A stretch of DNA of 64,000 bases from the NCBI GenBank assembly GCA_002733215.1, contig NVUY01000004.1, positions 1 to 64,000 on the forward strand. Reading direction: 5' to 3'. The notes under the pieces were generated by a model. That model ran no database searches, was not told the origin of the DNA, and was given only the letters and a program-made list of their open reading frames with translations. Position numbers and translations under genes: made by a program. Shown here piece after piece: positions 22,013-48,513 of this stretch. Within the stretch, counting starts at the first letter, position 1. Every line of letters starts with the position of its first letter. The stretch comes from Sulfurovum sp. (GTDB lineage: Bacteria > Campylobacterota > Campylobacteria > Campylobacterales > Sulfurovaceae).

Positions 22013-22984
22013 TTACTTGCTAAGTCTAAATTTAGGAATATTTAAAAAGTCAAACTTATCACACAATAGATTTACATCCTTATCGATTGATTCGCCGATA
22101 AATATCATAATAGAGGGTTCTGTATACGTCTCTAACTCTTCAAATGAGACATTCCCAAATGAGTAGTTAACTACAATAGGATTAGGGACATCTTTTACTT
22201 TTACCACACCTTTTACTCTGTAGATACTTTTAGGAATATTGTTTAATACTTCGTCCACATCATTAAACTCAATATCTTCTTTAAGATAAGCTACTTTTTG
22301 CGTGATCGAATCTTTTGTCGTGTGATCATGATGTTGATAATCTTTTGCCAAACCAATAATCTCATCAATATGGTACACACCCTCAAATACTTCTTTATTT
22401 ACAAGACCCTGCTCTGATTTGTTAATGACATAGTTATTAAATATTGTTTTACCTGTCATCGTGTTTTTGATGTTATACTCTTCTTTGATTTGAATCACAG
22501 TGTTTTTGACAGTTTCAAGCTCATCATCATTCACCAGATCAGTCTTGTTCAGTACGATGATATTGGACCCGCCAATTTGATATTTAGCCGTTGAATTATC
22601 TTTATATGAATCAAAGTTTTTAGAATCAACCACACAAATGATACCCTCAACAGAAATACCAAGGTTTTGTAAAGATAAAAAGATAGGGAAAGGTTCAGAG
22701 GCTCCTGAGGTTTCTACAAATATGATTTCAGGCTTGTATTTCTCTATGATCTCAAGTACACCGCTTTCAAACTCTTCGGCCAATTGGCAACAAATACAGC
22801 CTTCAGATATTTCAAGAACCTCGCTGTATACATTAGAAAGTATATTGCCATCAATACCAATATCTCCAAATTCATTTACTACAATAGCAACTTTTTTATC
22901 AGAAAAGTATTTTTTAACTGTATGGGTGAGCATGGTAGTTTTACCCACACCTAGAAATCCTGTAATAATAAATGATTGTATCAT
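22013..22984 (-). CDS. CobW/YeiR-family G3E GTPase (putative metallochaperone)
   Basis: A 323-residue P-loop GTPase of the G3E class, which delivers metals (zinc, cobalt, nickel or iron) to enzymes. Walker A GFLGVGKT is at residues 9-16, the metal-binding CICC at 63-66, a Walker B-type ETSG near 95, and NKTD near 145. A HHDH cluster lies near residue 210. The frame extends to 23050, but ATG 22984 matches the family start (MIQSFIITGFLG) and has AAGG upstream. It lies downstream of the por-like cluster, past a hairpin, and near the zinc-dependent dabA. A link to DabA metallation is inference. Confidence 0.88.
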   Translation of the reverse strand: MIQSFIITGFLGVGKTTMLTHTVKKYFSDKKVAIVVNEFGDIGIDGNILSNVYSEVLEISEGCICCQLAEEFESGVLEIIEKYKPEIIFVETSGASEPFPIFLSLQNLGISVEGIICVVDSKNFDSYKDNSTAKYQIGGSNIIVLNKTDLVNDDELETVKNTVIQIKEEYNIKNTMTGKTIFNNYVINKSEQGLVNKEVFEGVYHIDEIIGLAKDYQHHDHTTKDSITQKVAYLKEDIEFNDVDEVLNNIPKSIYRVKGVVKVKDVPNPIVVNYSFGNVSFEELETYTEPSIMIFIGESIDKDVNLLCDKFDFLNIPKFRLSK

Positions 22985-23100
22985 GTCTGTGCCTTGAAAA
23001 TGAGATTGTCTTGAGTGGATGTTTGTGAACAAACTACTTTCATAACCCAAAGATGTATAAGGGGTTAGGAAAAGAGTCTACAGGTTGTGTGTAGAGAAAC

Positions 23101-23125
23101 AAAAAAAACCACGCCCAAAGGCGCA
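23101..23125 (-). terminator. Rho-independent terminator of the por-like operon
   Basis: On the minus strand, a short CGCC/GGCG stem with a TTTG loop is followed by eight T residues (A run at 23101-23108 on the plus strand). It lies 10-30 bases after the porG stop. The stem is short, so read-through into the CobW gene is possible. Confidence 0.65.
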
Positions 23126-23134
23126 GTCCTTTGT

Positions 23135-23854
23135 CTATTTAGGGTTACCGTTGTTGTGTTTAGAAGGTTCAAGAATTGGCTCAAGACCAACTTCTTTAGC
23201 CCAAGCTGCAGTTAAATCGTAAGCTGCAGATGCAGTACTAAGGTTTTTCTCAATAAGTTCTTGTTTCTTCTTAAATTTCTTTTCAATAACTGAATCCAGT
23301 GTAGCTGTACCACCTGAAGCTGTATATTTCTTAAGGAATCTATCTTTAATTCCTGCTTCAATAGCAGGCTTTCCGATTGTACCAAGTGCTCCAAAGAGTG
23401 CACCTAACATTGCCATGTTTGTTGCAAGTTCAGTACCAGCCTGCTCGATAGCAAACTTAGTAAAGTCTCTTGTAAGTACTTTAACATTTAAATCATCTAA
23501 GATCTTTTTATCTTTAGCAGTTAAAAGGTCTACATCAGAGTTGATGATCACAAGACCATTTTCTTTGATACCAGCGTAAAAAGGCATAGTGTATGATTTA
23601 CCCATAGTAATAACCTGTGGGTGGAAGATCATAATGATATCCGGGTAAATTACTTCACCTCTATCGTAGATAGGCACTGTACCTATTCTTGCGTAACTTT
23701 CAGATGGAGCCATACGCTTTTCAGCACCAAAGAATGGGTTGGATACTGCGAAGTATCCTTCTGTATCAGCAGCAGTTGCTGCAATATGTGCAGCAGTTAC
23801 TGCCCCTTGACCACCAAGACCCGGAAGTCTTACTTTGATTGAATCTTTAGCCAT
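23135..23854 (-). CDS. porG: 2-oxoacid:ferredoxin oxidoreductase gamma subunit, cluster 1
   Basis: Gamma subunit of a CoA-acylating, ferredoxin-dependent oxidoreductase, used in the reductive direction to fix CO2 onto an acyl-CoA. The family opening VRLPGLGGQGAVTAAHI is at residues 8-24, and EKRMAPSESYARI and ATNMAMLGALFGA follow. It is 239 residues long. The start overlaps the porB stop by one base. It is 10th-order similar in layout to its paralogue at 44477. The por name follows the E-D-A-B-G gene order known from Hydrogenobacter pyruvate:ferredoxin oxidoreductase, but the substrate is not proven by the sequence. Confidence 0.88.
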   Translation of the reverse strand: MAKDSIKVRLPGLGGQGAVTAAHIAATAADTEGYFAVSNPFFGAEKRMAPSESYARIGTVPIYDRGEVIYPDIIMIFHPQVITMGKSYTMPFYAGIKENGLVIINSDVDLLTAKDKKILDDLNVKVLTRDFTKFAIEQAGTELATNMAMLGALFGALGTIGKPAIEAGIKDRFLKKYTASGGTATLDSVIEKKFKKKQELIEKNLSTASAAYDLTAAWAKEVGLEPILEPSKHNNGNPK

Positions 23855-24723
23855 TATATACGTCCCTCTTTTTTACATTTTTTCAAGAACTCTTCTGCTT
23901 CTGGTGAAACATATTTGTAAGATGCAAATCTATCTTTATCTTGATCTTTCATTTCTCCAAGTCCTTCATTGGCACTTAGTCCAATCTCAAGAATACAAGG
24001 TGTATAAATGTTAAGGAATGTTGGTCCGACTTCTCTAGCAACCAAGATTGCTTCTCTTACAGCTTTAGCCACTGCTTTAGGAGCAGAAGCTGTCATGTTT
24101 ACAGAGTAATGACAACCAGAAACTTTTGCAAGTTCCCACATTTTAACTTTTTCAAATTTCTTACCAGTAGGTGCCATTTTAAAAACTTGACCTTTTGGAG
24201 TTGAACCTGATTCTTGTCCACCTGTGTTTGCATATACTTCGTTATCGAAACAGATCGTTGTGATCTTCTCTTGTCTAAAGAAAGACTGTAGTGTATAGTC
24301 AAGACCGATATCAACAGTAGCACCGTCTCCTGCTAGAACAACAACATCTTTTTCAATATCTGGAAATCTCCAGTCTAATACTCTTTTGATACCAGTTGCA
24401 ACAGCATTCTGGTTACCAAAGAGTGAGTGTATTGTATGAAGTGCAATGTGTGGGAACATTAAAGCGGTACAACCTGTTGAGTTAACAATGATCGTATCTT
24501 CAGGTTTAGGCAATGCAGAAAGAACGTATCTCAATGCTGCTGCTTCTGGACAACCTGCACATAAAGAGTGCTCTTCAAGCAACTCTTTTGTTTGAGGAAG
24601 TTCTTTAATACCACGTGGTCTATCCATTTTATGAGACCATGTAGCATTCTCTTCAAGATCAATGATCTCTTGAGGCATAATGTCTCTGAATTCCGGATTG
24701 ATCTTATATATATCAATTGCCAT
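23854..24723 (-). CDS. porB: 2-oxoacid:ferredoxin oxidoreductase beta subunit (TPP-binding), cluster 1
   Basis: Carries thiamine diphosphate and a 4Fe-4S cluster. The TPP/Mg motif GDGATVDIG continues into DNEVYANTGGQ. Cluster cysteines are in LCAGCPEA, STGCTALM and YTPCILEIG. The ATG at 24723 is chosen because an AAGGAG ribosome site precedes it and it follows the porA stop directly. A longer frame from 24756 would overlap porA. The resulting length is 289 residues. Alpha, beta and gamma are separate genes, unlike fused PFOR proteins of heterotrophs. Confidence 0.92.
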   Translation of the reverse strand: MAIDIYKINPEFRDIMPQEIIDLEENATWSHKMDRPRGIKELPQTKELLEEHSLCAGCPEAAALRYVLSALPKPEDTIIVNSTGCTALMFPHIALHTIHSLFGNQNAVATGIKRVLDWRFPDIEKDVVVLAGDGATVDIGLDYTLQSFFRQEKITTICFDNEVYANTGGQESGSTPKGQVFKMAPTGKKFEKVKMWELAKVSGCHYSVNMTASAPKAVAKAVREAILVAREVGPTFLNIYTPCILEIGLSANEGLGEMKDQDKDRFASYKYVSPEAEEFLKKCKKEGRI

Positions 24724-24724
24724 C

Positions 24725-25927
24725 TTATGCTCCTTTTTCAGCGTCAATGTGTTCAAATACTTCTTTAAGAATTGCTTCAGCAGGCATACTCATACCACCA
24801 GCAACTCTAGGTCCGCCAATAATTTCTGCATCAGATTTTCCATAAAGTGCAGTTTTTACTTCTTTTTCCAACCAACCAACAACGTTGAATTCAGGTACAA
24901 ATATTTGTTTTACACCTTCTAGTGCTTCAAGAAGTTCTTCCGTTGGGAATGGTCTAATTGTTCTTAGTTTAATCACTTTCGTTTTTACACCAAGTTTTAT
25001 TAGTTCTCTCTCAGCTTCTTTTGCTTGATTAGAAGCAGTACCACAAGTAACAAATGCGATTTCAGCATCTTCAGTACCAGTCACATGAACAAGTCCTTTA
25101 AGGAAGTGTTTAGCGTATGGACGTGAACGTTCTACTGCTGATCTAACTTCCCACTGCCATGAAGCGTGAGTTGCGTAAGAGATGTAGTTAGACTTCATTA
25201 CAAATGGATCTCTTAAGAAACGGCCCGGAGGTGTTTCTGAATCGATCGGAGGTAATGGAGCCTTATATGGCTCATAAGGGAAAAGAGCGATATCATCAGC
25301 TGGTAACATTACAGACTCACGTGTGTGAGACACAAAGAAACCATCAACAACAGTAACGATCGGCACATGCACATCAGGTTTTTCAGCAACGATGAATGCT
25401 GCAATTGTCATATCAAACAGTTCTTGTACGTTTTCTGCGTACCAGATCATACATCCAGTTTCCAACATAAATGTAACTTCCAAGTTATCTGGTTGGATCG
25501 TAAGTGGTGAGTTAATACCTCTAGCCATCAAGATCAGTTGACAGGCAATTCTTGTACCAGACCATTGTGGAAAGTTTTCCATTGCTCTAAGTGTTCCTGG
25601 TCCTGAAGTGGTTGTAATTGTTCTTGCCCCTGCTGTAGCACAGCCAGAAACTTCGGACATTACACCAAATTCATTTTCCCCTCTAAAGTATACACCTACG
25701 TAACCTTCAGCCCATAGTTCACCGATAAGGTGAGCAGCTTCTGACTGTGGCGTAATAGGATACGATACTGATGCATCAACTGTACATCTTTTTACTGCTT
25801 CTTTAAGCACTTCTGAACCTGTCATAAAGTGTTTTTCTCTTGGAGCTTCAAAAAGGAGCTCATCTGCTGTAACCAGTCTTTGTCCAGACCAGTTATGCGT
25901 GTCTGTCATATCTTTAATTGTACTCAT
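24725..25927 (-). CDS. porA: 2-oxoacid:ferredoxin oxidoreductase alpha subunit, cluster 1
   Basis: 400 residues. It has the pyrimidine-binding domain with SYPITPQSEAAHLIGEL near residue 56 and the TTTSGPGTLRAMEN loop near 107. The domain II region follows (AFVTCGTASNQAKEAE, IRPFPTEELLEAL). The opening APREKHFMTGSEVLKEAVKR is shared almost word for word with the paralogue at 46099. The start ATG has GGAG close upstream. It lies 8 bases after the D subunit stop. Confidence 0.92.
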   Translation of the reverse strand: MSTIKDMTDTHNWSGQRLVTADELLFEAPREKHFMTGSEVLKEAVKRCTVDASVSYPITPQSEAAHLIGELWAEGYVGVYFRGENEFGVMSEVSGCATAGARTITTTSGPGTLRAMENFPQWSGTRIACQLILMARGINSPLTIQPDNLEVTFMLETGCMIWYAENVQELFDMTIAAFIVAEKPDVHVPIVTVVDGFFVSHTRESVMLPADDIALFPYEPYKAPLPPIDSETPPGRFLRDPFVMKSNYISYATHASWQWEVRSAVERSRPYAKHFLKGLVHVTGTEDAEIAFVTCGTASNQAKEAERELIKLGVKTKVIKLRTIRPFPTEELLEALEGVKQIFVPEFNVVGWLEKEVKTALYGKSDAEIIGGPRVAGGMSMPAEAILKEVFEHIDAEKGA

Positions 25928-25935
25928 ATTATCTC

Positions 25936-26505
25936 CTACTTACCAAGCTCAGCTTTTACTTCTTTAGCTATTTTGATGAATTTCTCAAGCTCTGAAGAAT
26001 GCTGGTCTCTTAATGTAGCCATTGCATCTTCATGCCCTGACATACTACAAATTGCGATTGTATAACAATCCGTTTCACAACGTACCATCTTAAGTGCAAC
26101 GTTTGCATAGTGACAGTGTACACCGATAAAGATCGCTGCTTTAATGTTGTTATGCCAAATCGTTAAGTTAGGGTGATTTGGATTGATCTCTACTTCTGCA
26201 TCAATTTTTGGATATTTTGGTCTATAATCGTACATTGGAATCATCTTAGCATTAAGTACTTCTGACATCTCTTTGATCAGTGTAGCTTTCTTCTTTGCTT
26301 CTTCGTTGTAACCATATAATACCTGTGGTCCAGGGAAAATAGTAGCATTTTCACTTGTTAACATCACTCTTGCAACTTCTCTCATTGCAGTTTCTTCATC
26401 TACTACACTCTCTAATAAAAGTGCTTTTCCTTCTGGTGGTGTAATTACACCATCATATAATGCCGCAGGATACGGTGAATAATATGCGGGGCCTTGGTTT
26501 GCCAT
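25936..26505 (-). CDS. porD: Accessory D subunit of five-subunit oxidoreductase, cluster 1
   Basis: 189 residues of a family seen only beside five-subunit 2-oxoacid oxidoreductases of reductive-TCA bacteria. As I recall, it is often annotated as carbon monoxide dehydrogenase beta-subunit family. Two phrases are shared with its paralogue at 47302: ATIFPGPQVL near residue 54, and YRPKYPKIDAEVEINPNHPNLTI near 93. GVHCHYANVALKMVR follows. The conserved His-Cys-His and two further cysteines (RCETDCYTIAIC) could bind metal. A PEGKALL segment opens the protein. The catalytic role is unknown. Confidence 0.82.
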   Translation of the reverse strand: MANQGPAYYSPYPAALYDGVITPPEGKALLLESVVDEETAMREVARVMLTSENATIFPGPQVLYGYNEEAKKKATLIKEMSEVLNAKMIPMYDYRPKYPKIDAEVEINPNHPNLTIWHNNIKAAIFIGVHCHYANVALKMVRCETDCYTIAICSMSGHEDAMATLRDQHSSELEKFIKIAKEVKAELGK

Positions 26506-29013: not shown

Positions 29014-29025
29014 AGAGGAATGTGA

Positions 29026-29760
29026 ATGTTGATAGATTTTATTTTATTGTTTTTGTTTGCGGGAGTACCGTACTATGTCTTTTTTGAAAAGACAAAAATC
29101 TTAGGGAAAGAAAAGATATTTCTTCTTTCTGCATTTTTAGTCATTTGTGGAATGATAGTCTCAAGCATGTTTCCACAAGAAAGATGCACACTGGTCATCG
29201 TTGTGGCATTTTTAGCTTCTTGGTTTTCTCTTTACAAAGCGAAGCAAACGACCAACCTCTATAAACTAAGCTACTATGTACTTTTCTTTAATGCGCCTAT
29301 GCTCATTATGTTTGAAACAAAAGAAAGTATCTTGTATGGGATATCTTTACTTGTAACACTCTTTGGTATTTACCTTATGGGGAAATATTATGAGCGTAGT
29401 TATGGAAGTGCCAACTACAGGTCAGTGAGTGGTATCACCCTTGTCACACCTTATGCCGGGCTTTTTTTAACCCTCTACTTAACTACATTAGCACTCTACC
29501 CGCCATTCCCAAATTCCTTGCTATTTTTCAATGCCATACTCTCTACAGACACAAATTCACTATGGTATCTATCTGTGGCAGTGATCTTTTTTGGAAATTT
29601 TCTTATCGCTATGAGAGTGATGGCAAAAACCGTCTTTGGTAAACCCAATGATAATGTACACTACATTGACTTAGCACCTAAAGAAAGATGGTTACATCTA
29701 GCTATATTTGCACTATTACTAGTCCTCAGTGCTGCAGGACTTAAGGAGCTACTTTCATGA
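29026..29760 (+). CDS. Membrane protein between dabB and dabA, NuoM/MrpD-tail-like
   Basis: 244 residues with six or seven hydrophobic segments. The C-terminal stretch, with GNFLIAMRVMAKTVFGKP and DLAPKERWLHLAIFALLL, resembles the end of NuoM/MrpD-type antiporter subunits. The conserved antiporter core with its key lysine and glutamate helices is not evident. It begins 12 bases after dabB and its stop overlaps the dabA start (ATGA), so it is translated with both. The standard Dab system has two genes. This could be a third subunit or a second, shortened antiporter module. Confidence 0.75.
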   Translation: MLIDFILLFLFAGVPYYVFFEKTKILGKEKIFLLSAFLVICGMIVSSMFPQERCTLVIVVAFLASWFSLYKAKQTTNLYKLSYYVLFFNAPMLIMFETKESILYGISLLVTLFGIYLMGKYYERSYGSANYRSVSGITLVTPYAGLFLTLYLTTLALYPPFPNSLLFFNAILSTDTNSLWYLSVAVIFFGNFLIAMRVMAKTVFGKPNDNVHYIDLAPKERWLHLAIFALLLVLSAAGLKELLS

Positions 29761-32636
29761 GTTTACTGGAAAAACTAAATGCGGTGAAAGATACCGTACC
29801 ACACTATTGGCCTATAGGTGCTTTTATCCATCATAATCCTCTAAAAGGTTTTGAACATCTTAACTTTAAAGAAGGACTAATCAAAGCCCAAAACACATTT
29901 GGTGGCAAAGTCTATATGGATCCAGACTATTATATCGCGCTCTACCATAAGGGAAAAGTAAAACCTGAACACCTTGAAAAAAACTTGCTAAGACCTCTAG
30001 AAGAAGCAAAACTTGAGAACTATGCAAGTTCAGCTAAAACATTTATGCTGGAGATAAGTCCACAATGGAACAGTCTGAGAAGCTATGAAGATTTAAAAAT
30101 AAATGACATAGATGAAGAACTACATACGTATCTTGAAGAGAAATCTATCTACCTACACAAAGAGGCATGGATAGAATCACTAACAGAGCATATGACACTC
30201 TATGAAATACATGATGCACTCTTTGGTACAAGTGAAAAAGAACTCATAGAAAAAGATGTCATTGAATACATCGCTCGTTTCCTTGATGAAGCGCAAACCA
30301 CACTTAGTATGGCAGACAGAGACCTTGGTATGTTTAACACCTTTAAACTCTATGAAGATATCGACCATGAGGGTGATTCAGAATCATATGTTGAAAAGGT
30401 TCTAGAAGAATTCAAAGTGCCCAAGAAAGATATAGAAAAGTACTTTTTAACACATATCCTAAAGCTGCATGGATGGGCTGGATTTATCAAATACCGTTCA
30501 GAAGATAAAGAGTACTACCCACAGCAAGTGCATCCCTCATCACTTATGGACTATATGGCTGTCCGATTGCATTTTGGATTAAAATATATGCAAGAAGGAG
30601 AGATCAATGATTTTGATAAACTACACGCTTATATCAAAAACAATACTCCTTATACTATATTAAAACTCTTGCAGTCAAAAGGTAAGCTTACAGGTACTTA
30701 CAATGATGCCATGGAAGAACACCAGGACTATCAAGAAATTTTAGATGCCTATGTAAAAGATGAAATTAATCTGGACTCATTACAAATACAGCTTGCTAAA
30801 AAATCGCTACCTTCGCTTGATATGACACTCATAGAGTTTGCAAATTTTGCAGAACTGCTTAAAAAAGAAGAAGGATTTCTTTGGTTAAAGTCTTTGGAAG
30901 ACAGCTATATATCTGAACATGTAGATGCATTTACATCACCTCATACTTATGAGGAAAAACCTCTTTCTTCCACTATTTTTTGTTTGGATGTAAGGTCGGA
31001 AACCATACGTAGAAAAGTAGAAGAATCTGGACCCTATGAGACCTATGGTGCAGGTGGTTTCCTCGGTATACCTATCAACTTTGTAGAGTTCGATAAGGCA
31101 CATGCATTGGCACTTGCTCCTGCTGTTATAAAACCAAAAAATATTGTTTTTGAAATACCCGTCGAAGTGCATGAAGAATACAATTCAAAAAAAGGTATAA
31201 CAAAAACATACAAAAAAGTTTTAACTGACCTTAAAAATAATCCCTATACCCCTTATATTATGGTAGAAGCTATTGGATGGATGTTTGGTATCAAACTTTT
31301 TGGAAAAACATTTTTTCCGGAAAAAACAGAAAAACTGTTTAATAAGATGAAGCCAAAAAAGCCAAAAACTACTTATACACTTGATAAGCTGACCATTCAA
31401 GAGATTGAAAAATATATCAGAAGACTCCATACAAATATTATCAATGAAGTATTAACTACACAATCTGATACAGTACTTAATAAAGATGAACTCTTCATCT
31501 TGTGGGAACATCTTATTTTTAATAAAGATTTATGTATTAAAATTTCCCCAGATATCATCAACAAATTAAAACATGCTTATCATATTACAGGTATGGATTA
31601 TACACTTCAAAAAGAAAAACTGGGTCAAGTTGGGTTTACCATAGACGAACAAGTTATGTACGTAGAAAACCTTCTAAATATGATAGGTATGGTAAAAGAC
31701 TTCTCTAAATTTGTTATTATCTCTGGACACGGAAGCGTATCTGACAATAATCCATTTGAATCTGCATTAGACTGTGGTGCCTGTGGGGGGAGTATTTCTT
31801 TACCAAATTCAAGGGCACTTTGTATGATTGCGAACAAAGAAGAAGTACGTGAAAAACTCAAAGAAAAAGGGATAGATATCCCTGCAGATGTAAGATTTAT
31901 ACCTGCTATACATACAACAACCACCGATGAAATTACATTTCATGATACAGAGTTACTAAATCAAGAAGAGCTAGAACTTTTTTCTAAAATGGAGCTTGAC
32001 TTTAAAAAAGCATCATTTGAGGCAAGAGAAGAAAGAGCCTTAGACTTGCCTAATACCAATGAACAAAAAGATCTTTTTATTAAAACGATGGATTGGTCTG
32101 AACCTAGACCGGAATGGGGACTTGCCGGCAATATGGGTGTATTCGCGGGACCAAGAGACTCTTGTAGACATATCCCTTTTAAGAACAGACTATTTATGCA
32201 CTCTTATGACTCGACCATCGACAACGAGAACTCAGATCTTCTCACACGTATATTTGATGGCCCACTGGTTGTAGGTGAGTGGATCAACCTTGAGCATTAT
32301 TTTTCTACTGTAGATAACAAGATCTATGGTGCAGGCTCAAAGGTATACCACAATGTCGTCTCTAAAATTGGTGTCTATAATGGTAACTATAGTGATTTAA
32401 AAATTGGTCTTCCTACACAGTCTGTTCTTTTGGAAGGTGAAGCCTATCATGAGCCTGTACGCCTACTCACTTACATGGAAGCACCCCTGGATACAGTAGC
32501 AAAAGCGGTTGAAAACTCAATTGCGAAGGAATTCATCTTAAATGAATGGATACGCCCTATCATCATAGACAAAGCAGCCAAAAAAGTGTACTCCTATGAG
32601 TTTGGAGAGTTCATAGTCATCAAAGAGCTTGCATAG
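29757..32636 (+). CDS. dabA: DabA inorganic-carbon transporter subunit (DUF2309, carbonic-anhydrase-like)
   Basis: 959 residues, soluble-looking, peripheral partner of DabB. It has a zinc site like that of beta-carbonic anhydrases. The expected ligands are visible: C409 and D411 in IFCLDVRSE, H658 in ISGHGS, and C673 in SALDCGACGG (with C676). The motif NNPFESALDCGACGG is a clear family signature. It would convert CO2 to bicarbonate for carboxylating enzymes. The flanking ferredoxin-dependent oxidoreductases fix CO2 itself, while other reductive-TCA carboxylases use bicarbonate. The ATG overlaps the previous stop. Confidence 0.95.
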   Translation: MSLLEKLNAVKDTVPHYWPIGAFIHHNPLKGFEHLNFKEGLIKAQNTFGGKVYMDPDYYIALYHKGKVKPEHLEKNLLRPLEEAKLENYASSAKTFMLEISPQWNSLRSYEDLKINDIDEELHTYLEEKSIYLHKEAWIESLTEHMTLYEIHDALFGTSEKELIEKDVIEYIARFLDEAQTTLSMADRDLGMFNTFKLYEDIDHEGDSESYVEKVLEEFKVPKKDIEKYFLTHILKLHGWAGFIKYRSEDKEYYPQQVHPSSLMDYMAVRLHFGLKYMQEGEINDFDKLHAYIKNNTPYTILKLLQSKGKLTGTYNDAMEEHQDYQEILDAYVKDEINLDSLQIQLAKKSLPSLDMTLIEFANFAELLKKEEGFLWLKSLEDSYISEHVDAFTSPHTYEEKPLSSTIFCLDVRSETIRRKVEESGPYETYGAGGFLGIPINFVEFDKAHALALAPAVIKPKNIVFEIPVEVHEEYNSKKGITKTYKKVLTDLKNNPYTPYIMVEAIGWMFGIKLFGKTFFPEKTEKLFNKMKPKKPKTTYTLDKLTIQEIEKYIRRLHTNIINEVLTTQSDTVLNKDELFILWEHLIFNKDLCIKISPDIINKLKHAYHITGMDYTLQKEKLGQVGFTIDEQVMYVENLLNMIGMVKDFSKFVIISGHGSVSDNNPFESALDCGACGGSISLPNSRALCMIANKEEVREKLKEKGIDIPADVRFIPAIHTTTTDEITFHDTELLNQEELELFSKMELDFKKASFEAREERALDLPNTNEQKDLFIKTMDWSEPRPEWGLAGNMGVFAGPRDSCRHIPFKNRLFMHSYDSTIDNENSDLLTRIFDGPLVVGEWINLEHYFSTVDNKIYGAGSKVYHNVVSKIGVYNGNYSDLKIGLPTQSVLLEGEAYHEPVRLLTYMEAPLDTVAKAVENSIAKEFILNEWIRPIIIDKAAKKVYSYEFGEFIVIKELA

Positions 32637-37578: not shown

Positions 37579-40212
37579 TTATATCGCCAGCATCTCATTC
37601 AATTCATCTGCATAAATAATTTCTTTTTCAAGAAGTAGTTTTGATAAGTCTTGTATCCTGTCCCAATGTTCATTAACGAGATCAATAGTACTTTTTTCAC
37701 CTTCAAGCATCCATCTCTCAAGTGCCCTATCGATCTTTTCATGATAATGTTCTGTATCTTTACTAGAGACAGATTTTTCTTTAGCATCCATCACACCATT
37801 GATGTTTATGTACCCTACCTCTTTATCCATGCCATAATACGCGATGGCAGCATACGCATCACGTGTGGCTTGTTGTATGTCATTTGAAGCACCCGTATCC
37901 ATACCTTCTATCTCACCAAAAAGTTTCATTTGCGCTGTTCTTCCCGCCAAAGAGATACATATTTTGTTTTTAAAGTCTTTGATGGTCATATTGTCTTGCA
38001 CATCATTATAATTTTGTGAAATAAAGTGTTCATTGTTATCTTTTGGTGTTAAAGAAATATGTTCAATATGAAGATGCGGCATGAGAACCTTAGAGATCAC
38101 AGCACGCCCTGCTTCATAGATCGCTGTCTCTTCAAACATCTGTTCAGGAGACAGATAGGACTGTTGCTCACCATATTTGATCGCATTGATCTGAGAGATC
38201 AAAATATCTTCTGTGATAGCAGGTAAGCTATGGCGTAAACAATAGAATGATGCTTCTTTACCCATAAGTTCAAGCTCTGCACCCGTCATCCCCGCGGTAT
38301 ACATGAGCAGCTTATTGATGTCAAATGTACCTGAGGTAGGTTTCTTTTCGATGACTTGGTTTAAAAAGTATTTTCTTGCATCTTTATCAAGGTTGTTGAT
38401 CTCGATGTGGATCTCGATTCTTCCTGGTCTGATGATGGCAGCATCTATGTTCTCTTTATAGTTTGTTGCGGCAATGACAAAAACATTTTCACCATTATTG
38501 TCAGAAAAACCATCTATCTCTGATAAAAGTTTATTGATAGGCACTTCCCTGCTGTCTCCGGTACCACGCTTTCCGATAGTATCTATCTCATCTATAAAAA
38601 CAATAGCAGGTGCATACTCTTTTGCTTTGGCAAAGATTTGCTTTGTTTTTTCAGGATCGAGCAGTTCTAAACCCGTGACCGAGATAAAAGGTAACTCAGC
38701 CTCTTTCGCAAATGCTTTAGCCAGCATGGTTTTCCCTGTTCCGGGAGGTCCATAAAGCAGCATACCTTTTGGTGGTGTAATGTTAAAGCTTTCTAGTAAC
38801 TTCGGCTTTTTAAAGAAGTTAATGACCTCATGAAGCCTTTGCTTTGCTTTATGGTGACCTGCGATATCATCAAAAGAGATATTTGGTATATCAAAAACAA
38901 GTCCGTCTTCAGAAAAATCTTTGATTCTTGTTACCTGTTTAAATTTACAACTGTTTACTTTGTAAGTGATGACACCATTTTTATCTGTGAACTTATCCTT
39001 GATATCCAGCGTTACATTTTTTCTAAAAAGTTCTTTTACCAGTATTTTATCTTCTATAAGAGGGTTTACCATCTCATTCAAGTACGTTACACAATCTTTA
39101 GAGAGAGCTACTTTTATCTTGCTAAATTTTTTAGTCGATTTCCCTGAATCCATCATATACTTGGTGATCCTATTAAAGAAAGTCGTAGTTACTTTATCTT
39201 TAATACGTCTTGCATCAAGTTCCGGTGCAAAATTGAGTATCTGTATTTTTAAGAAGTTTTGAAAATTACTTCCCTGCTCAAATTCAATCTCATATCTATC
39301 TTTAAACCCATCTTTATACTTTAAAAATGTTTTCTTTGTGATATTTTCAAAAGCTCCATAATTGAGCTTGTTAAATAAAACGATGTTTGCCTGTGAAAAT
39401 CTCGAAACCAACTCGGGGAGAATGGCTTGTTGTAAACCACCGCTTCTACTGTCTCTTTTTTTCTCTCTTCTAATGGCTTCAAGAATCATCGATTCAGCTT
39501 GGATATAGTCTTCTTTGACAAGCTCTTTAAATCTGTTATCAAGGTAAAGCTCTTTACCTAAACTACTGGTAATAATAAATATAGTTTCTGTAAAGTCTAC
39601 CATATAATGGGCATTTTCATCGCTGTAGATGATATCGGGATCTTCACTACATGCATCATCCGTGATCTTGTCCCAGCCACATCCATCACGCATTTTACCG
39701 CCTTGGAAGATGGAGAGAAGGTTACTTTGAATGTTCGTATCACATTTTTCAAAAGCATCAAGCACGATGATAGCCTTAGGGTTTCTATGCACAAAGCCCG
39801 TTAACTGACCCACACCGTATCCCTTCCAGCCGGCAGGATACCCATAGAGTTCTCCACCATTTTGCTGATGGTATTGTGTCATATCAAAAGTCATGATCTT
39901 ATACTTGGGTATATGTTCACTCATAAGCTCAGAAAGATAAGTCTTACCGGTTGCAGGTGAACCTAAAAAAAGGTAAGTTAACTTAGGTGCTTTTTTATTC
40001 TCTACGATATCGTTTTTCATACTGTTTACAACAGTGTCGATAGCTTCATCTTGTCCAAACAATTCTTTAGAGAGCGCTTCTTTTAATGTATTTACAAAGG
40101 CTATATTTTTTTGCGCTTCACTCTCCGCTGCACTCTCGAGTTCATCTTCATCATCATCTATGTTTTCGTATTTTTCAACTTGTGCTTTGACTAAGGCTTC
40201 TGTTTCTGTCAT
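37579..40212 (-). CDS. ClpA/B-type AAA domain fused to FtsH-type AAA and inactive M41 peptidase domain
   Basis: 877 residues, no membrane segment. AAA-1 (about 45-350) resembles the ClpA/B D2 domain. Walker A GSPATGKT is at 84-91, YGYPAGWKGYGVGQLT follows, and Walker B is VLDAFEKC with A153 in place of the catalytic Glu. AAA-2 (about 445-680) resembles FtsH: Walker A GPPGTGKT at 488-495, DEID at 541-544, and RPGR near 595. It lacks the FVGVG pore loop, with LLDPEKTKQIF in its place. The M41-like tail has YEAGR at 699-703 where FtsH has HEAGH, so zinc cannot be bound normally, though GASND (774-778) remains. It looks like an ATP-driven scaffold or remodeller. Confidence 0.88.
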   Translation of the reverse strand: MTETEALVKAQVEKYENIDDDEDELESAAESEAQKNIAFVNTLKEALSKELFGQDEAIDTVVNSMKNDIVENKKAPKLTYLFLGSPATGKTYLSELMSEHIPKYKIMTFDMTQYHQQNGGELYGYPAGWKGYGVGQLTGFVHRNPKAIIVLDAFEKCDTNIQSNLLSIFQGGKMRDGCGWDKITDDACSEDPDIIYSDENAHYMVDFTETIFIITSSLGKELYLDNRFKELVKEDYIQAESMILEAIRREKKRDSRSGGLQQAILPELVSRFSQANIVLFNKLNYGAFENITKKTFLKYKDGFKDRYEIEFEQGSNFQNFLKIQILNFAPELDARRIKDKVTTTFFNRITKYMMDSGKSTKKFSKIKVALSKDCVTYLNEMVNPLIEDKILVKELFRKNVTLDIKDKFTDKNGVITYKVNSCKFKQVTRIKDFSEDGLVFDIPNISFDDIAGHHKAKQRLHEVINFFKKPKLLESFNITPPKGMLLYGPPGTGKTMLAKAFAKEAELPFISVTGLELLDPEKTKQIFAKAKEYAPAIVFIDEIDTIGKRGTGDSREVPINKLLSEIDGFSDNNGENVFVIAATNYKENIDAAIIRPGRIEIHIEINNLDKDARKYFLNQVIEKKPTSGTFDINKLLMYTAGMTGAELELMGKEASFYCLRHSLPAITEDILISQINAIKYGEQQSYLSPEQMFEETAIYEAGRAVISKVLMPHLHIEHISLTPKDNNEHFISQNYNDVQDNMTIKDFKNKICISLAGRTAQMKLFGEIEGMDTGASNDIQQATRDAYAAIAYYGMDKEVGYININGVMDAKEKSVSSKDTEHYHEKIDRALERWMLEGEKSTIDLVNEHWDRIQDLSKLLLEKEIIYADELNEMLAI

Positions 40213-40655: not shown

Positions 40656-41030
40656 TTATCTTGATGCTTTACTTTTGGCAATACGCTCCAGCATTGCATC
40701 AAAACTTCCAGTTGAACGTACCTCTACTACTGCTGTTACCACCGCATGCATTGCAACATATTGCAAATAGCTTGTGAGGTTTTCACAATCACTCTCCTTC
40801 ATCTTTTCTTCTATTTTTGTTTTTTGTGACTCTGTCACTTTAAATCCGAGTTCTACAGATGCCTCCCCCATTGATGCACCTGCGGAGATAAGAGTAAATG
40901 TTTGTGTTTTTAGTGCTATGACTTTTAAATACGCAGAGATGTCATCAAATCCATTTTCTGACATCCTTGACTCTATCGTTTCTTTTTGTGCAGGTGTCAC
41001 GTTAAAACTTATATTGATAGTTCTATGCAT
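40656..41030 (-). CDS. Protein with two tandem ribbon-helix-helix-like repeats
   Basis: 124 residues made of two copies of a roughly 50-residue unit. The first is INISFNVTPAQKETIESRM with a SAYLKVIAL helix. The second is VELGFKVTESQKTKIEEKM with a TSYLQYVAM helix. Strand-helix-helix with xTxxQK is the layout of ribbon-helix-helix DNA-binding proteins and MobC-like relaxosome parts, which normally dimerise from single units. A fused pair could bind DNA as a monomer. It starts 105 bases from the divergent LRV-type gene. Confidence 0.6.
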   Translation of the reverse strand: MHRTINISFNVTPAQKETIESRMSENGFDDISAYLKVIALKTQTFTLISAGASMGEASVELGFKVTESQKTKIEEKMKESDCENLTSYLQYVAMHAVVTAVVEVRSTGSFDAMLERIAKSKASR

Positions 41031-42766: not shown

Positions 42767-44023
42767 TTATGCTTTATGGAATCCAAGCATCACACCAAAA
42801 AGTTTATCTTCTGTAAGTCCCATTTTTGCGGATGTCATTAAGTTATTCTCTTGGTAGTATTTAACCAAGGCTTGTGGATCTTGACCTGTCATCGTAGCCT
42901 GATAGCCCAGTGCTGCTATGACTTCTTGTTCATGCACATCAATGCCCTCTTTTTTAGCTAACGTTTCAACAATAAGAGACATCTTTATGCTTTTTCTTGC
43001 CTCCTCACGTACGGATTCTCTAAGTTCTTTAAATTTGCCCTTATCTGCCATATATGACTTATGCTGCTCATCCGTAAATCCTCTTGTCTTTTCACGTACC
43101 TTTGCATCTATTTCCTGCTCTACTATGTTGTTTGGCAGGGTAAAGTCAAATCTCTCAAGTAAGGCTTTTACAATTTTTGGCTTAAGATCACTCATGTAAA
43201 TTTGTGAAAGTTCTTCAGCTGTGACTTGTTCTTTAAATTGTTTCTTCAGTGTATCCACTGTTGCATCTTCTTTTTGAAGTATTTTTTTGGCAAAAGCATC
43301 ATCTATGGTCACTGCTTTTTGTTCTTGGATCTCATGAAGTTTTACAACAAACTTAGCTTCTTTACCCGCAAGATCATCTGCTGAATAATCTTTTGGAAAG
43401 CTTACGGTAACATCTCTTTCTTCACCATATTCCATTCCTATAAGTTGTTCTTCAAATCCGGGGATAAATGAATTAGAACCTACTTTAATGTTAAACTTCT
43501 CCGCAGACCCGCCTTCAAAAGGTTTATCATCTATAAAACCTGTAAAATCGATCACAGCAACATCAGCATTTTCAATCGGCTTTGCTTTTTCTATCTTTGT
43601 GAATGGTGCTTGTTTTTGAGCGAATTCCAGCAGTTTAGCTTCTACCGCTTCCGCACTGGCAGTAGGTTCAGTGTAAGAAGGCACGAACTCCTTATAATCA
43701 ATGTCAACATTTATTTCAGGACTCACAGCTATTTCTACTTCAAAATAAATGCTATCATCTTGCTGCTCATATTTTTTAAGTCCCGGTTGACCTAAAATAT
43801 CTTCAACGTTTAAATTGCCTTCTTTAATGCCGGCATCAACGAAGTCTTTAAAAACTAGACTGGCAGCATTTTGTTCAATATTATCATTTGTTGATTCGTC
43901 ATTTTTTGACTCTTTAGAAGCTTGCTCTTTAAGAGTGACAACCTTTTTTTCAATCACACTGTTCTCAACAGTACCACTCATAATAAAGTTTACATCGTCT
44001 ATTTTTTCTACTGTAATTTTCAC
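42767..44023 (-). CDS. Trigger-factor paralogue lacking the ribosome-docking motif
   Basis: 418 residues with trigger-factor domain order. A PPIase (FKBP-like) domain lies around 145-235, with DVAVIDFTGFIDDKPFEGG and GMEYGEERDVTVSFPKDY. A long helical C-terminal chaperone domain follows. The N-terminal domain starts like Tig (MKITVEKIDDVNF), but the GFRxGKxP loop that docks on ribosomal protein L23 is absent. A polar stretch (SKNDESTNDNIEQNAA) takes its place. It is therefore likely an extra, ribosome-free chaperone, with the canonical tig elsewhere. It sits next to the for-like operon and a globin. Confidence 0.85.
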   Translation of the reverse strand: MKITVEKIDDVNFIMSGTVENSVIEKKVVTLKEQASKESKNDESTNDNIEQNAASLVFKDFVDAGIKEGNLNVEDILGQPGLKKYEQQDDSIYFEVEIAVSPEINVDIDYKEFVPSYTEPTASAEAVEAKLLEFAQKQAPFTKIEKAKPIENADVAVIDFTGFIDDKPFEGGSAEKFNIKVGSNSFIPGFEEQLIGMEYGEERDVTVSFPKDYSADDLAGKEAKFVVKLHEIQEQKAVTIDDAFAKKILQKEDATVDTLKKQFKEQVTAEELSQIYMSDLKPKIVKALLERFDFTLPNNIVEQEIDAKVREKTRGFTDEQHKSYMADKGKFKELRESVREEARKSIKMSLIVETLAKKEGIDVHEQEVIAALGYQATMTGQDPQALVKYYQENNLMTSAKMGLTEDKLFGVMLGFHKA

Positions 44024-44240: not shown

Positions 44241-44462
44241 TTAGTCAGGTGTAGACATTGTCATGGTAATACAATCACGGTTAAGCATGTCGCTACATAC
44301 GTATACACAAATTGCACACCCTTTACATCTATCTTCATCAACCCAAGCGTTATTAGCCACAGAGTCAAACATTAGTGTATTTGCCTCTGGACAGTACAAA
44401 GTACAGGTAGTACATTTATACTCAGCACATTTGTCTGCATCTACTTTTGCTACATAATACAT
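44241..44462 (-). CDS. forE: Ferredoxin-like E (delta) subunit, cluster 2
   Basis: 73 residues, 4Fe-4S double-cluster protein. CAEYKCTTCTLYCPEANTLMF near 12-32 and CKGCAICVYVCSDMLNRDC near 46-64 correspond closely to the cluster-1 subunit at 26552. It is the final gene of the operon. It feeds or takes electrons at the beta subunit. The name follows the D-A-B-G-E order of the second five-subunit oxidoreductase of Hydrogenobacter; it should be treated as positional. Confidence 0.85.
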   Translation of the reverse strand: MYYVAKVDADKCAEYKCTTCTLYCPEANTLMFDSVANNAWVDEDRCKGCAICVYVCSDMLNRDCITMTMSTPD

Positions 44463-44476
44463 TTTATTCCTTTCTC

Positions 44477-45187
44477 TTAAACGTCAAACTGAATAATTGT
44501 TTCGTCAGTCGACATATCTACTTCATCTGCCATCGCGAAAGTTGCAGTAATAACTTCCATGTTTTTAGCAAGTAAATCTTCTTTTTTCTTAAACTTTTTC
44601 TCAATAGCAGAATCAAGAGCGGCAGTACCACCAGACGCAACAAATGAGTTTCCTAAGAATCTTTCTCTAACAGCTGCTTCAATATTATCTATATTTACAA
44701 GTTTAGTAAGACCAAGAACCATACCCATCATTGCCATGTTTGTTGCAAGTTCAGTACCGGCAATTTTCAGAGCCAATGCAGTAGCATCAAATTGTACAAC
44801 TGTAGCATTTAAGTTTTTAAGTACTTCAACATCTTCAGGAAAAAGAACATCTCTGTCCGTGTTAATGATGATCAAAGAGTTTGGTTTTAGACCTGTATAA
44901 AAAGGCATTGTGTATGATTTACCATGTGTCACAACTTGTGAATGGTAGATCATAATAATATCAGGGTAAATAACTTCCCCTACTTCATAGATAGGCTGTG
45001 TTGAAGCTCTAACGTACGCTTCAACAGGTGCCATTCTTTTTTCAGAACCAAAAAATGGTACCAATGATGCAAATTTACCTGCATTATCCATTGCCGCACC
45101 AAGAATGTGGGCAGTGGTAACAACACCCTGTCCACCTAGTCCAGAGATTCTAATATTATAACGTTCTATTTTTTTCTTTTCAGCCAT
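44477..45187 (-). CDS. forG: 2-oxoacid:ferredoxin oxidoreductase gamma subunit, cluster 2
   Basis: 236 residues. RISGLGGQGVVTTAHILG is near residue 12, EKRMAPVEAYVRA near 50, and ATNMAMMGMVLG near 140, as in the cluster-1 gamma subunit. The frame extends upstream to 45268, but ATG 45187 has GGAGG just before it, and the longer version would overlap forB by about 80 bases with a lysine-rich, unlikely start. Part of the same CoA-acylating enzyme as the neighbours. Confidence 0.88.
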   Translation of the reverse strand: MAEKKKIERYNIRISGLGGQGVVTTAHILGAAMDNAGKFASLVPFFGSEKRMAPVEAYVRASTQPIYEVGEVIYPDIIMIYHSQVVTHGKSYTMPFYTGLKPNSLIIINTDRDVLFPEDVEVLKNLNATVVQFDATALALKIAGTELATNMAMMGMVLGLTKLVNIDNIEAAVRERFLGNSFVASGGTAALDSAIEKKFKKKEDLLAKNMEVITATFAMADEVDMSTDETIIQFDV

Positions 45188-45188
45188 A

Positions 45189-46085
45189 TTAAGCCTCCAT
45201 TGCTTTTTTAGCTTTTTTAGCTGCTTTTTCTTCAGCTTCAACACGTTCGATGACTTCTTTTGCTGCATCTGTCATGTATTCGTCAAATGTGAAACGATCT
45301 TTTTCTTGTGCTTTAGCATCAGCAAATACATCTTCTGTAGGGATAGAGTATTCAATGTTACATGAAGTATATGCTTGAATAAACGTAGGTCCTACTTCAC
45401 GTGCCACAAAGATCGCTCTTCTGATCACTTTTGCAGCTTTTTTGATGTTAGTTGGAGACATTCTTACAATGTATACACAACCGGCAGCTTTAGCTAAGTC
45501 CGTAGCAGGCATTTTTTCAAAGTCTTTACCCAGTGGAGCCATTTTAAGTACAGCACCTTTAGGAGACATACCAGATGATTGACCACCCGTGTTTCCATAA
45601 ACTTCATTATCAAGCATGATCGTAGTAAATTTCTCACCACGGATCCATGAGTGCATAGTCATAGAGAAACCAATATCCATAGTTCCACCGTCACCGGCGA
45701 TAGTAATAACATCTTTTGTTTTATCCGGGAAACGTAATCTAAATGCACGAGTTAGACCAGAAGCCATGGCATTTTGATCACCGTAGTTACCATAAATAAA
45801 TGGCACTGCAGCTTGAGAGATCGCCAAACGACCACAACCTGCTGTACCTATTGTTACTGTTTCTTCAGGTTTTGGAAGTGAAGCAAAAATCAATCTAATG
45901 TAATATGCCATCCAACAACCAGAACACATTGGGTGCTCTTCCACAAGCTCTTTAAACTGTCCCATGTTACCTGGACCAGCTTCGTCTTGAGTCTTACCAA
46001 ATGGACCGTAGTCAATCAACTCAACATAATCTTTTGGGAGATATCTTTTAAATCTCTCCGAAGGTGTTATATATTTTAAACTCAT
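45189..46085 (-). CDS. forB: 2-oxoacid:ferredoxin oxidoreductase beta subunit (TPP-binding), cluster 2
   Basis: 298 residues. TPP/Mg motif GDGGTMDIGFSM, then LDNEVYGNTGGQSSG. Cluster cysteines in MCSGCWMAYY, GTAGCGRLA and YTSCNIEYS. The C-terminus is lysine- and alanine-rich (AEEKAAKKAKKAMEA), unlike cluster 1. GGGAAT precedes the ATG. Substrate choice between pyruvate and 2-oxoglutarate cannot be read from these motifs. Confidence 0.92.
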   Translation of the reverse strand: MSLKYITPSERFKRYLPKDYVELIDYGPFGKTQDEAGPGNMGQFKELVEEHPMCSGCWMAYYIRLIFASLPKPEETVTIGTAGCGRLAISQAAVPFIYGNYGDQNAMASGLTRAFRLRFPDKTKDVITIAGDGGTMDIGFSMTMHSWIRGEKFTTIMLDNEVYGNTGGQSSGMSPKGAVLKMAPLGKDFEKMPATDLAKAAGCVYIVRMSPTNIKKAAKVIRRAIFVAREVGPTFIQAYTSCNIEYSIPTEDVFADAKAQEKDRFTFDEYMTDAAKEVIERVEAEEKAAKKAKKAMEA

Positions 46086-46098
46086 TTTATTCCCTTTT

Positions 46099-47289
46099 TT
46101 ATAATTGTAGGTCGTATTCTAAACCAAGAGCATCATGAATTTCTTTCATGATCAACTCAACAGGAAGTGTCATACCACCATATACTCTTGGACCTTCTAC
46201 AACAATTCCACCATTTGGAATCGTTGCTTTGATCTCTTTACATAACCAACCAATAATGTTGTGCTCAGGAACGATAAGTGCCTTAGCATTTTTAACAACA
46301 TCTCTGATCTCATCAGCTGGGAATGGTCTGATCGCTTTCACTTTGATAAGCCCAACACTCAAACCATCTTCCTGTGCATATCTCCAAGCTTCTCTTGCCT
46401 GTGCAGCAGCACAACCGGAAGCAACAATAAATACATCAGCTTCAGGGTTTTGAACTTCGATTGGTCCACCAAGGTACTGATAGATATATTTCATCGCACG
46501 TTTGTTTGAATCCCAGATCTCTTGTTGCCATACTGAGTGAATCAGGTAAGACATAAAGTTTGACTTTTGAACAGGAGCATCTCTTTGGATTCTAGCTGGT
46601 GGAGTTTCATTATCCATAGCTGGAACCGGTGAAGCAACTGAGTCAAAGTCCAAATATCCTAGGTCTTCTGACATCATGTCAACGTAACCTTTCGCGTGTG
46701 TTACGAAGAAACCTTCTGTAGCCACTGCAACCGGGATATAAACATCAACTTTTTCTGCAATAGCAAATGCCGCCAGTGTAAAGTCAAATGTATCTTGCTG
46801 GTTTTCAGCATGAAGCATCACAGCACCACAGTGCATCATGTATGCCATTTCAATATTATCAGGCTGGATTGACAACGGTGCATTGATAACACGAGTCAAG
46901 ATTCCCAATACTGCCGGAACTCTGTGTCCTGACCATGAAACAATTGCTTCCAGACCTCTCATGAGTCCTGGTCCTGATGTTGCTGTAAACAGACGAACAC
47001 CTGCTCTTGAAGCACCTGCGATCGCAGACATTGTTCCAAGTTCTTCTTCAGCTCTATAGTACTCTTTAATATGCCCTTGTGCAAAAACATCACCCACAAG
47101 GTGCATTACTTCTGATTGTGGTGTAATAGGATAGGCAATTGCCATATCTACGTTTGCTCTCTTAACAGCTTCTGCCATCGCTTGAGCACCTGTAATAAAG
47201 TGCTTCTCTCTTGGAGCCTCATTTAAAAGGTAATCCATATCTACTAATTTTTTTACCGGTTGTGGTCTTCCATCATCTAAATAACTCAT
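46099..47289 (-). CDS. forA: 2-oxoacid:ferredoxin oxidoreductase alpha subunit, cluster 2
   Basis: 396 residues. NEAPREKHFITGAQAMAEA opens the protein, AYPITPQSEVMHLVGDV is near residue 54, and TATSGPGLMRGLEA near 103. Late motifs are VIASGCAAAQAREAWRYA and IRPFPADEIRDVV. Its domain layout is the same as the alpha subunit at 24725, so the two clusters arose by duplication of a whole set. AAGGAG precedes the ATG. Confidence 0.92.
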   Translation of the reverse strand: MSYLDDGRPQPVKKLVDMDYLLNEAPREKHFITGAQAMAEAVKRANVDMAIAYPITPQSEVMHLVGDVFAQGHIKEYYRAEEELGTMSAIAGASRAGVRLFTATSGPGLMRGLEAIVSWSGHRVPAVLGILTRVINAPLSIQPDNIEMAYMMHCGAVMLHAENQQDTFDFTLAAFAIAEKVDVYIPVAVATEGFFVTHAKGYVDMMSEDLGYLDFDSVASPVPAMDNETPPARIQRDAPVQKSNFMSYLIHSVWQQEIWDSNKRAMKYIYQYLGGPIEVQNPEADVFIVASGCAAAQAREAWRYAQEDGLSVGLIKVKAIRPFPADEIRDVVKNAKALIVPEHNIIGWLCKEIKATIPNGGIVVEGPRVYGGMTLPVELIMKEIHDALGLEYDLQL

Positions 47290-47301
47290 ATCATTTCTCC
47301 T

Positions 47302-48015
47302 TTATTCAACTTCTGCAACGTGTTCGCCTTTTCTAGATATGATGAGACTTCTATACTCGCCATAATCAGCTGGTGATAATGTACTGTTATCCTCTTTTGG
47401 TAAAGATGGATTTTCAGGTGGTAAAGTAGTTTCCCACTTAATGCCTAATTTGTCTCTTTCTTCAATAACGATCTCTTTGAATCTGAGAATATCTGATGCA
47501 TGTAGATCTCTAATTGACGCCATAGCTTCTTCATGTCCCATGTAAGCACATAATGCAACGGTATAACAGTCAGTACCGGCACGGATCATTCTAAGTGTAA
47601 GGTTTGCATAGTGACAGTGTACACCTACAAAAACACAGGCTTTGATCTTATTATCAAGGATTGTTAAGTTCGGGTGGTTAGGATTGATCTCAGCCTTAAC
47701 ATCAATTTTTGGATATTTTGGTCTGTAATCCGGCATTGGAATAATTCTACAATTAGGAATCTCAGATGCAAGATCCAATATTGCGGCAGATTTTTCCGCA
47801 ACATCCTCTTTCCAGTCCCATAAAACTTGTGGTCCAGGGAAAATTGTTGGGTTGTCTTTTGTAAGTAATGCTATAGCAGCATCTCTCATTGCCTCTTCTG
47901 GTGTGACTACATTACCATAGAGTAAAGCTTGACCTTCCGGTGCAAGCTCAACACCCATCATAGGTGCTGAATCAGGCATATAGCCGGCAGGTCCTTCTGT
48001 AACTATCTTCGTCAT
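47302..48015 (-). CDS. forD: Accessory D subunit of five-subunit oxidoreductase, cluster 2
   Basis: 237 residues, first gene of the second cluster. It shares PTIFPGPQVLWDW, DYRPKYPKIDVKAEINPNHP and FVGVHCHYANLTLRMIR with the D subunit at 25936. It has a C-terminal extension of about 45 residues (PPENPSLPKEDNSTLSPAD region) missing from the first. I choose ATG 48015, which has AAGGAG upstream. The frame runs open to 48132, but that part looks non-coding. Confidence 0.82.
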   Translation of the reverse strand: MTKIVTEGPAGYMPDSAPMMGVELAPEGQALLYGNVVTPEEAMRDAAIALLTKDNPTIFPGPQVLWDWKEDVAEKSAAILDLASEIPNCRIIPMPDYRPKYPKIDVKAEINPNHPNLTILDNKIKACVFVGVHCHYANLTLRMIRAGTDCYTVALCAYMGHEEAMASIRDLHASDILRFKEIVIEERDKLGIKWETTLPPENPSLPKEDNSTLSPADYGEYRSLIISRKGEHVAEVE

Positions 48016-48513
48016 AGTTGACTCCTTAATATTAATTAGACATAACGTTTTCCAGATAGAAAGTATCATCTGTACATTCATATCGTTGAAATAATAATAT
48101 CGAATAAAATCTTTATAAATATTGAAATTCAAAGTATCTTATATTAAAGTGTTCATTATAAAAGTGTTTTGGTAACACTTTGCACACTTTAAACATGATA
48201 ACACATTATGTATGTTATTTATTATTCTTAAGCCTTCAAGAAAAGAACAGATTTATATCATTTGTATCTCATATTATTATGCAATATGTTACTTAACTAC
48301 TCAAGGTGAATCTCTTTTGGAATATCATCAAGCTTTAAAATTGTCACACGAGAATATGTTTCAAAGTTAGTTTTGAACACAACTTTGTTAGCAATATAGA
48401 CAGGTAATCATAAATATTTAAGGAAACAACTGATATAAGCTACCCACATTGAATAATAGTGCAGTTACTTTACAATAACTGTATTCAAATAAATAATGAC
48501 CAAGGAACAAATT
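48016..48513. promoter_or_regulatory. Divergent control region between the for-like operon and small Cys gene
   Basis: About 500 bases without a gene. It carries copy C of the dispersed repeat (48281-48420). It separates the minus-strand oxidoreductase operon from the plus-strand small Cys-motif gene, mirroring the por-dab divergent region. Confidence 0.6.
48281..48420 (+). repeat. Dispersed regulatory repeat, copy C
   Basis: Contains GCAATATGTTAC, AACTACTCAAGGTGAATCTC, AATATCATCAAGCTTTAAAATTG, CACACGAGAA and CAAAGTTAGTTTTGAACACAA. It aligns with copy B (27121) over most of its length: shared ACTACTCAA, ATCTC, TATCATCAAGC, CACA-GAGAA and AAAGTTA-TTTG-CACAA. The repeat is placed between the for-like promoter and the small Cys gene, as copies A and B are between por and dab. 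Confidence 0.68.

Follow-up and report, generated by a model that had tools for sequence, protein, structure and literature searches.

The window, meaning the whole stretch of 64,000 nucleotides analyzed here, carries on its reverse strand a gene (37579..40212, ATG start) whose 877-residue product, P0001, was classified from the open reading frame, domain search, and alignment as a Clp-FtsH pseudo-protease, hereafter type A. Directly upstream and in the same direction lies the gene of a 124-aa duplicated NikA-like small protein (40656..41030, reverse strand), an arrangement found in nine group 1 loci. At higher coordinates follow a leucine-rich-repeat-variant protein (41135-41584), a 143-aa protein with no Pfam match (41759-42190) whose relatives are paired just downstream of type A in group 2, and TF2 (42767..44023, reverse strand), identified by sequence comparison as a paralogue of trigger factor in which GFRKGKVP, the motif for docking on the ribosome, is missing. 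The window also holds a five-subunit 2-oxoacid:ferredoxin oxidoreductase operon at 44244..48132 (PF02552 subunit 47302-48132) and a second oxidoreductase operon at 22013..26505 (PF02552 subunit 25936-26505, alpha subunit 24725-25927), both on the reverse strand, and a DabA inorganic-carbon transporter subunit on the forward strand at 29757..32636. A 264-aa open reading frame at 33007-33801 has no Pfam match and no counterpart at related loci.

Three Pfam domains scored well clear of their cut-offs in P0001, namely AAA_2 (residues 76-273), AAA (484-606), and Peptidase_M41 (694-873), in agreement with a first-pass annotation that had read a Clp-type AAA, an FtsH-type AAA, and an M41 domain in one 877-aa chain. 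The first module, D1 (residues 37-345; 39178..40104, reverse strand, as are all features of the gene given below), is a ClpA/ClpB-D2-type AAA domain by Pfam AAA_2, by NCBIfam ClpA/ClpB D2, and by the structure model. Motif alignment identified its Walker A as GSPATGKT (residues 84-91; 39940..39963), and its Walker B reads IIVLD-A153-FEK, so that the loss of the catalytic Glu noted in the first pass is confirmed; the codon of A153 (39754..39756) encodes Ala or Ser in the readable type A sequences and Glu in the intact members of the family described below. The arginine finger PELVSR and the sensor 2 motif DARR are present. The earlier annotation had missed the aromatic, ClpB-like pore loop GWKGY (residues 128-132; 39817..39831), which is kept as GW[KS]GY in all type A members. 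The D2 domain of ClpB has a GYVG pore loop, and GWKGY resembles it. Predicted secondary structure assigned residues 346-440 (38893..39177) to the end of the D1 small domain and a beta-hairpin linker. The second module, D2 (residues 441-690; 38143..38892), is an FtsH-type AAA domain by domain searches and alignment; its Walker A (GPPGTGKT, 488-495), Walker B (FIDEID), sensor 1 (AATN), and arginine finger (RPGR, 595-598) are intact, and a six-residue gap stands in place of the FVGVG(A) pore loop of FtsH, much as the first pass had described. In the M41 domain (residues 691-877; 37582..38142; Pfam Peptidase_M41), YEAGR (residues 699-703; 38104..38118) replaces HEXXH by motif alignment, again as first annotated, while the third zinc ligand, D778, is retained. 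A Kyte-Doolittle scan for transmembrane segments in P0001 found none, with a maximum over 19 residues of 0.89 against 2.65-2.96 for three membrane FtsHs of the same genome, so that the absence of the FtsH membrane helices was upheld and P0001 is, as predicted from its sequence, a soluble protein.

D2 and the M41 domain are homologous to FtsH (MEROPS M41; TIGR01241) and share its Walker A and B, sensor 1, and arginine fingers, whereas P0001 has no transmembrane or periplasmic part, no HEXXH, and a deleted pore loop, and carries an extra Clp-type AAA domain; its score against TIGR01241 was 306.8 bits, below the 600-bit equivalog cut-off. With the D2 of ClpA/ClpB (Hsp100), D1 shares the AAA_2 fold, the arginine finger, sensor 2, and an aromatic pore loop, but P0001 has a single Clp-type AAA (no Clp D1 partner), has lost the catalytic Glu, and is fused to an FtsH AAA and M41. 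The proposed analogy with the chloroplast FtsHi and Ycf2-FtsHi motor (PMC8197885; PDB 8xku, 8xqw) holds only insofar as an active FtsH-type ATPase is joined to a dead M41 domain, a fusion believed in the chloroplast case to serve as a motor; it does not extend to the membrane-bound, heteromeric state of the chloroplast proteins, which are without a Clp-type AAA, whereas P0001 is bacterial, has no transmembrane segment, and has no consistent FtsH-like partner. The MoxR-vWA FtsH ternary conflict systems (PMC7159879) also hold a double AAA protein whose first ATPase is inactive and whose second, of FtsH type, is active, but there both AAA domains are FtsH-type and no M41 is described, while D1 of P0001 is Clp-type with its P-loop kept; having a different architecture, these systems were rejected as a prior description of the hybrid. 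The literature searched contained no account of a protein that joins Clp, FtsH, and M41 domains, which leaves in place the first-pass remark that no described family has this domain order.

An AlphaFold2 monomer model of P0001 built from 39 sequences was of moderate confidence (pLDDT 78, pTM 0.60), with low confidence in the pore loops and the M41 surface. Modelled D1 matched the ClpB C-terminal domain (Z 22.5 over 297 residues, rmsd 3.6), modelled D2 plus M41 matched FtsH, with solved FtsH chains at 30-34% identity, and the Ycf2-FtsHi motor was among the structure matches.

Of 150 Sulfurimonadaceae genomes, 16 contain a full-length homologue of P0001, its own genome (G000) counted among them, and so do seven named Sulfurimonas records. 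The closest named relatives (74-77% identity) are Sulfurimonas records, which assigns the genome of P0001 to Sulfurimonas. A scan of genome contigs with the single P0001 query, which reaches close relatives only, returned full-length relatives only in Sulfurimonas. A search of a plasmid collection gave no match covering 80% of P0001, and so yielded no named full-length homologue outside GTDB-type collections. The first zinc-binding His is absent from all 24 type A sequences, where Y, R, or K stands instead, and no H[EQ]xxH, the finding that the first-pass annotation had named as contrary evidence, occurs anywhere in P0001 or its 23 homologues. The D1 catalytic Glu is Ala or Ser wherever it can be read, one sequence having ambiguous bases, and GW[KS]GY and the D2 catalytic residues are retained across the 24. 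By these motifs the protease is judged dead throughout the type A clade. Between close type A pairs, dN/dS was 0.027-0.047 over the whole chain, 0.02-0.04 in the AAA domains, and 0.05-0.10 in M41; because the motif losses are shared and purifying selection is strong, the motif state is a maintained one and neither an error nor a pseudogene. The loss of catalytic residues at two of three sites is what a decaying or non-functional protease remnant would also present, but that reading is refuted by the purifying selection (dN/dS of about 0.03-0.05), by conservation over deep divergence, and by transfer between families followed by retention, and we regard it as exceedingly improbable.

When the family alignment was searched against 397 Campylobacterota genomes, the hybrid family was present in 39, of which 32 held the full domain order and seven a short form only. 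The first-pass reading of the domain order was thus correct for the single protein but too narrow, as the Clp-FtsH hybrid is, from its sequences, a phylum-level family of Campylobacterota with intact, ATPase-dead, and protease-dead branches. Five intact members (L080/L081, 925 aa; L101, 1092 aa; L170/L171, 914 aa) have the domain order and D2 gap of type A and carry D1 DEIEK, D2 DEID/DEFD, and HEAGH, that is, all three active sites. By motif class, type A has a dead protease, a D1 dead for hydrolysis, and an intact D2; type C (~800 aa; L055-L075, L022) keeps HEA[AG]H with a degenerate D1, and its D2 is degenerate in most members, the Walker motifs looking intact in the f8 members L065-L069; and type B (~450 aa) has no D1, a degenerate D2, and HEA[ASG]H kept. 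All four kinds share the gap at the D2 pore loop. Type C is widespread in several Campylobacterota families and type B is common in Sulfurimonas. The genome of P0001 itself encodes a soluble type B protein of 448 aa (L003; G000:C40:36782-38125) that keeps HEASH and the third ligand but whose Walker B, sensor 1, and arginine finger have degenerated. The third FtsH of this genome (L005; G000:C38, about 63759-64061), which is membrane-anchored with an intact AAA and YQASK in place of HEXXH, is a second pseudo-protease.

A maximum-likelihood tree of D2 plus M41, midpoint-rooted, with long FtsH outgroup branches and built without L170/L171, separated the hybrid family from the canonical FtsHs of the same genome (support 100/100), grouped type A as one clade (100/100) and types B and C as another (100/100), and placed L080/L081 as the first branch. 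P0001 thus belongs to the family defined as soluble chains of AAA_2, FtsH AAA, and M41 with the D2 gap, monophyletic relative to canonical FtsH. The best explanation of these relationships is that type A derives from a fully active Clp-FtsH hybrid protease through loss of the protease, and that its sister clade retained HEXXH and mostly lost its ATPases. The resulting series runs from an intact hybrid AAA+ protease to two sister branches, one of which would have retained a motor without the protease, and the other the protease motif while mostly losing the motors; it lends itself to testing how the two functions, ATPase and protease, separate.

The reciprocal motif losses of paralogues A and B in one genome, both soluble and both with the same D2 pore-loop deletion, are what would be expected of a mixed hexamer in which type A supplies the ATPase and the 448-aa mini-FtsH of type B the protease, as in FtsH/FtsHi or m-AAA heteromers. 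Type B, however, occurred in 6 of 16 genomes with type A and in 25 of 134 without it (p=0.10 overall, 0.75 within genus, a distribution that also served as a negative control for the associations below), so that no association was seen and neither needs the other; type B also lacks the D2 arginine finger that a neighboring A subunit would need, and we consider a mixed hexamer unlikely.

L101, L102, L103, and L176, representing four of the five intact members, lie beside DUF4062-STAND genes on the same strand; the DUF4062 calls were made by Pfam or cluster membership at L101, L102, and L103 and by sequence resemblance at L176. A TIR protein is also encoded at L102 and L103 and a membrane protein of TrkA_N type, whole or in fragments, at L101, L102, and L103, while no DUF4062 gene was in view at L177. 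Since a recent preprint describes DUF4062 as a TIR-like NADase that takes part in antiphage defense (PMC13174449) and the intact members adjoin DUF4062 and TIR genes, the ancestral setting of the hybrid family may have been a conflict system, as gene neighbors in three bacterial families suggest. That type A itself is an anti-phage or conflict-system ATPase would follow from the same clusters, but the type A loci examined showed no DUF4062 or TIR neighbor, and type A instead accompanies genes of carbon fixation and of chaperones, making this role very unlikely. The clusters of intact Clp-FtsH, DUF4062-STAND, TIR, and TrkA_N genes are a possible uncharacterized defense system in their own right. 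PADLOC returned generic AAA matches only, and these were discarded as evidence of a defense system.

Recurrent neighbors of type A are TF2, DabAB, hemerythrin genes, and truncated-globin-like genes, the last assigned by sequence resemblance, with no match in Pfam or NCBIfam. In every copy of TF2 an unrelated, variable segment replaces GFRKGKVP, which the ordinary trigger factors sampled keep; an ordinary trigger factor was not found in the genome of P0001, which is 85% complete. In G130 and G132, the two type A genomes without TF2, type A lies directly behind cbpA (DnaJ-like) and hspR, the hspR of L091 matching the HspR equivalog above cut-off, and a HAIR-like operator stands 46-60 bases upstream of cbpA with one mismatch at L095 and three at L091. 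Type A is therefore found beside protein-folding genes in two settings. Other HAIR-like matches in a HAIR/CIRCE scan of all loci were many, weak, and at chance level, and none is claimed for the window. At L090, L092, and L097, a gene for a 543-567-aa phosphatase-kinase-fusion-like protein lies between TF2 and type A and adjoins genes resembling those of nitrate assimilation.

The first-pass annotation had proposed checking for co-occurrence with por/for and dab clusters, and the association proved very strong. Among 150 Sulfurimonadaceae genomes (16 with and 134 without type A, many incomplete), PF02552 was present in 16/16 against 1/134, the lone match being a 46-position fragment, DabA in 15/16 against 0/134, and TF2 in 14/16 against 0/134; Fisher p-values were 1e-17 to 1e-20, but as the genomes are not independent, these overstate the association, the effective independence being perhaps three lineages; from the spread over two genera and one other family, independent co-gains are judged to number at least three. 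Type A and DabA lie on separate contigs in six genomes, so their association is unexplained by linkage, and no conserved operon links type A to the oxidoreductase genes. The sole type A genome outside Sulfurimonadaceae in the phylum sample, G398 (Sulfurovum-like, its genus inferred), also carries TF2, DabA, and a pair of PF02552 genes, its type A gene lying on a different contig, and PF02552 was found in none of 31 other Campylobacterota genomes tested, 30 of which have type C or intact members. For Sulfurimonas pluma, a species adapted to oxygen, Molari et al. 2023 (PMC10066037) described five-subunit 2-oxoglutarate and pyruvate oxidoreductases (OOR and POR) of Aquificales affinity, together with hemerythrins, as an adaptation to oxygen; the main text of that paper makes no mention of an FtsH-like protein, trigger factor, or DabA. 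Operon content here and in that study suggests that PF02552 marks the fifth oxidoreductase subunit. A common niche (oxygen, low CO2), and not direct interaction, may account for the co-inheritance. Type A and TF2 are two uncharacterized genes, putatively for chaperones, whose distribution in Campylobacterota follows that of oxygen-tolerant carbon fixation.

Judging from sequence and context together, type A is probably a proteolytically dead AAA+ remodelling ATPase, soluble and built of two rings, that belongs to oxygen-adapted Campylobacterota with a reverse TCA cycle and leaves its clients uncleaved. The first-pass suggestion of a remodelling ATPase rather than a protease gains from the finding that the protease is dead clade-wide while the D2 catalytic residues are intact. 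Six chains would form stacked rings, in which D1, by its natural E->A/S replacement, would hold ATP unhydrolyzed and grip the polypeptide through the GWxGY pore loops, and D2, without the FtsH pore loop, would hydrolyze ATP and drive movement; the dead M41 domains would form the base and exit of the hexamer, so that a client would be released unfolded or rebuilt, and uncut. Type A would act within a chaperone network that includes the ribosome-free trigger factor in most genomes and the CbpA/HspR operon in one lineage, in Campylobacterota whose reverse TCA cycle relies on five-subunit oxidoreductases that tolerate oxygen. The hexamer, the unfoldase activity, the division of labor between the rings, and the identity of the client are drawn from these comparisons, and the D2 pore-loop deletion together with a hydrolysis-dead D1 makes threading harder to explain. 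Those same two features would suit a regulator or scaffold in which ATP cycling by D2 switches binding, as in an adaptor or sensor, with no unfolding; yet D1 strictly conserves its aromatic pore loop, for which a pure switch would have no need, and the genes around type A are those of chaperones, so a switch appears rather unlikely.

For the remodelling ATPase, a specific client can be named only tentatively. Its clients may be proteins of the carbon-fixation apparatus that are exposed to oxygen. A doubtful possibility is that type A, with TF2, would be a dedicated, activase-like AAA+ chaperone of CO2-fixing reverse-TCA enzymes, serving the assembly, activation, or repair of the oxygen-tolerant five-subunit pyruvate/2-oxoglutarate:ferredoxin oxidoreductases, and derived from a switched-off conflict-system protease; alternatively, type A may serve general proteostasis under oxygen. 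Through these two genes one can ask how the enzymes of the reverse TCA cycle, sensitive as they are to oxygen, keep working in oxygenated sea water.

In the genome of P0001, type A and TF2 have their nearest counterparts in Sulfurimonas, unlike DabA, which has 78-79% identity to the DabA of another genus against 63-64%. The DabAB genes of the window (28027-32633) are closest to those of another genus (70-82%), unlike their neighboring genes, and an allele replacement is the likely origin of this pair, as far as its sequences indicate.
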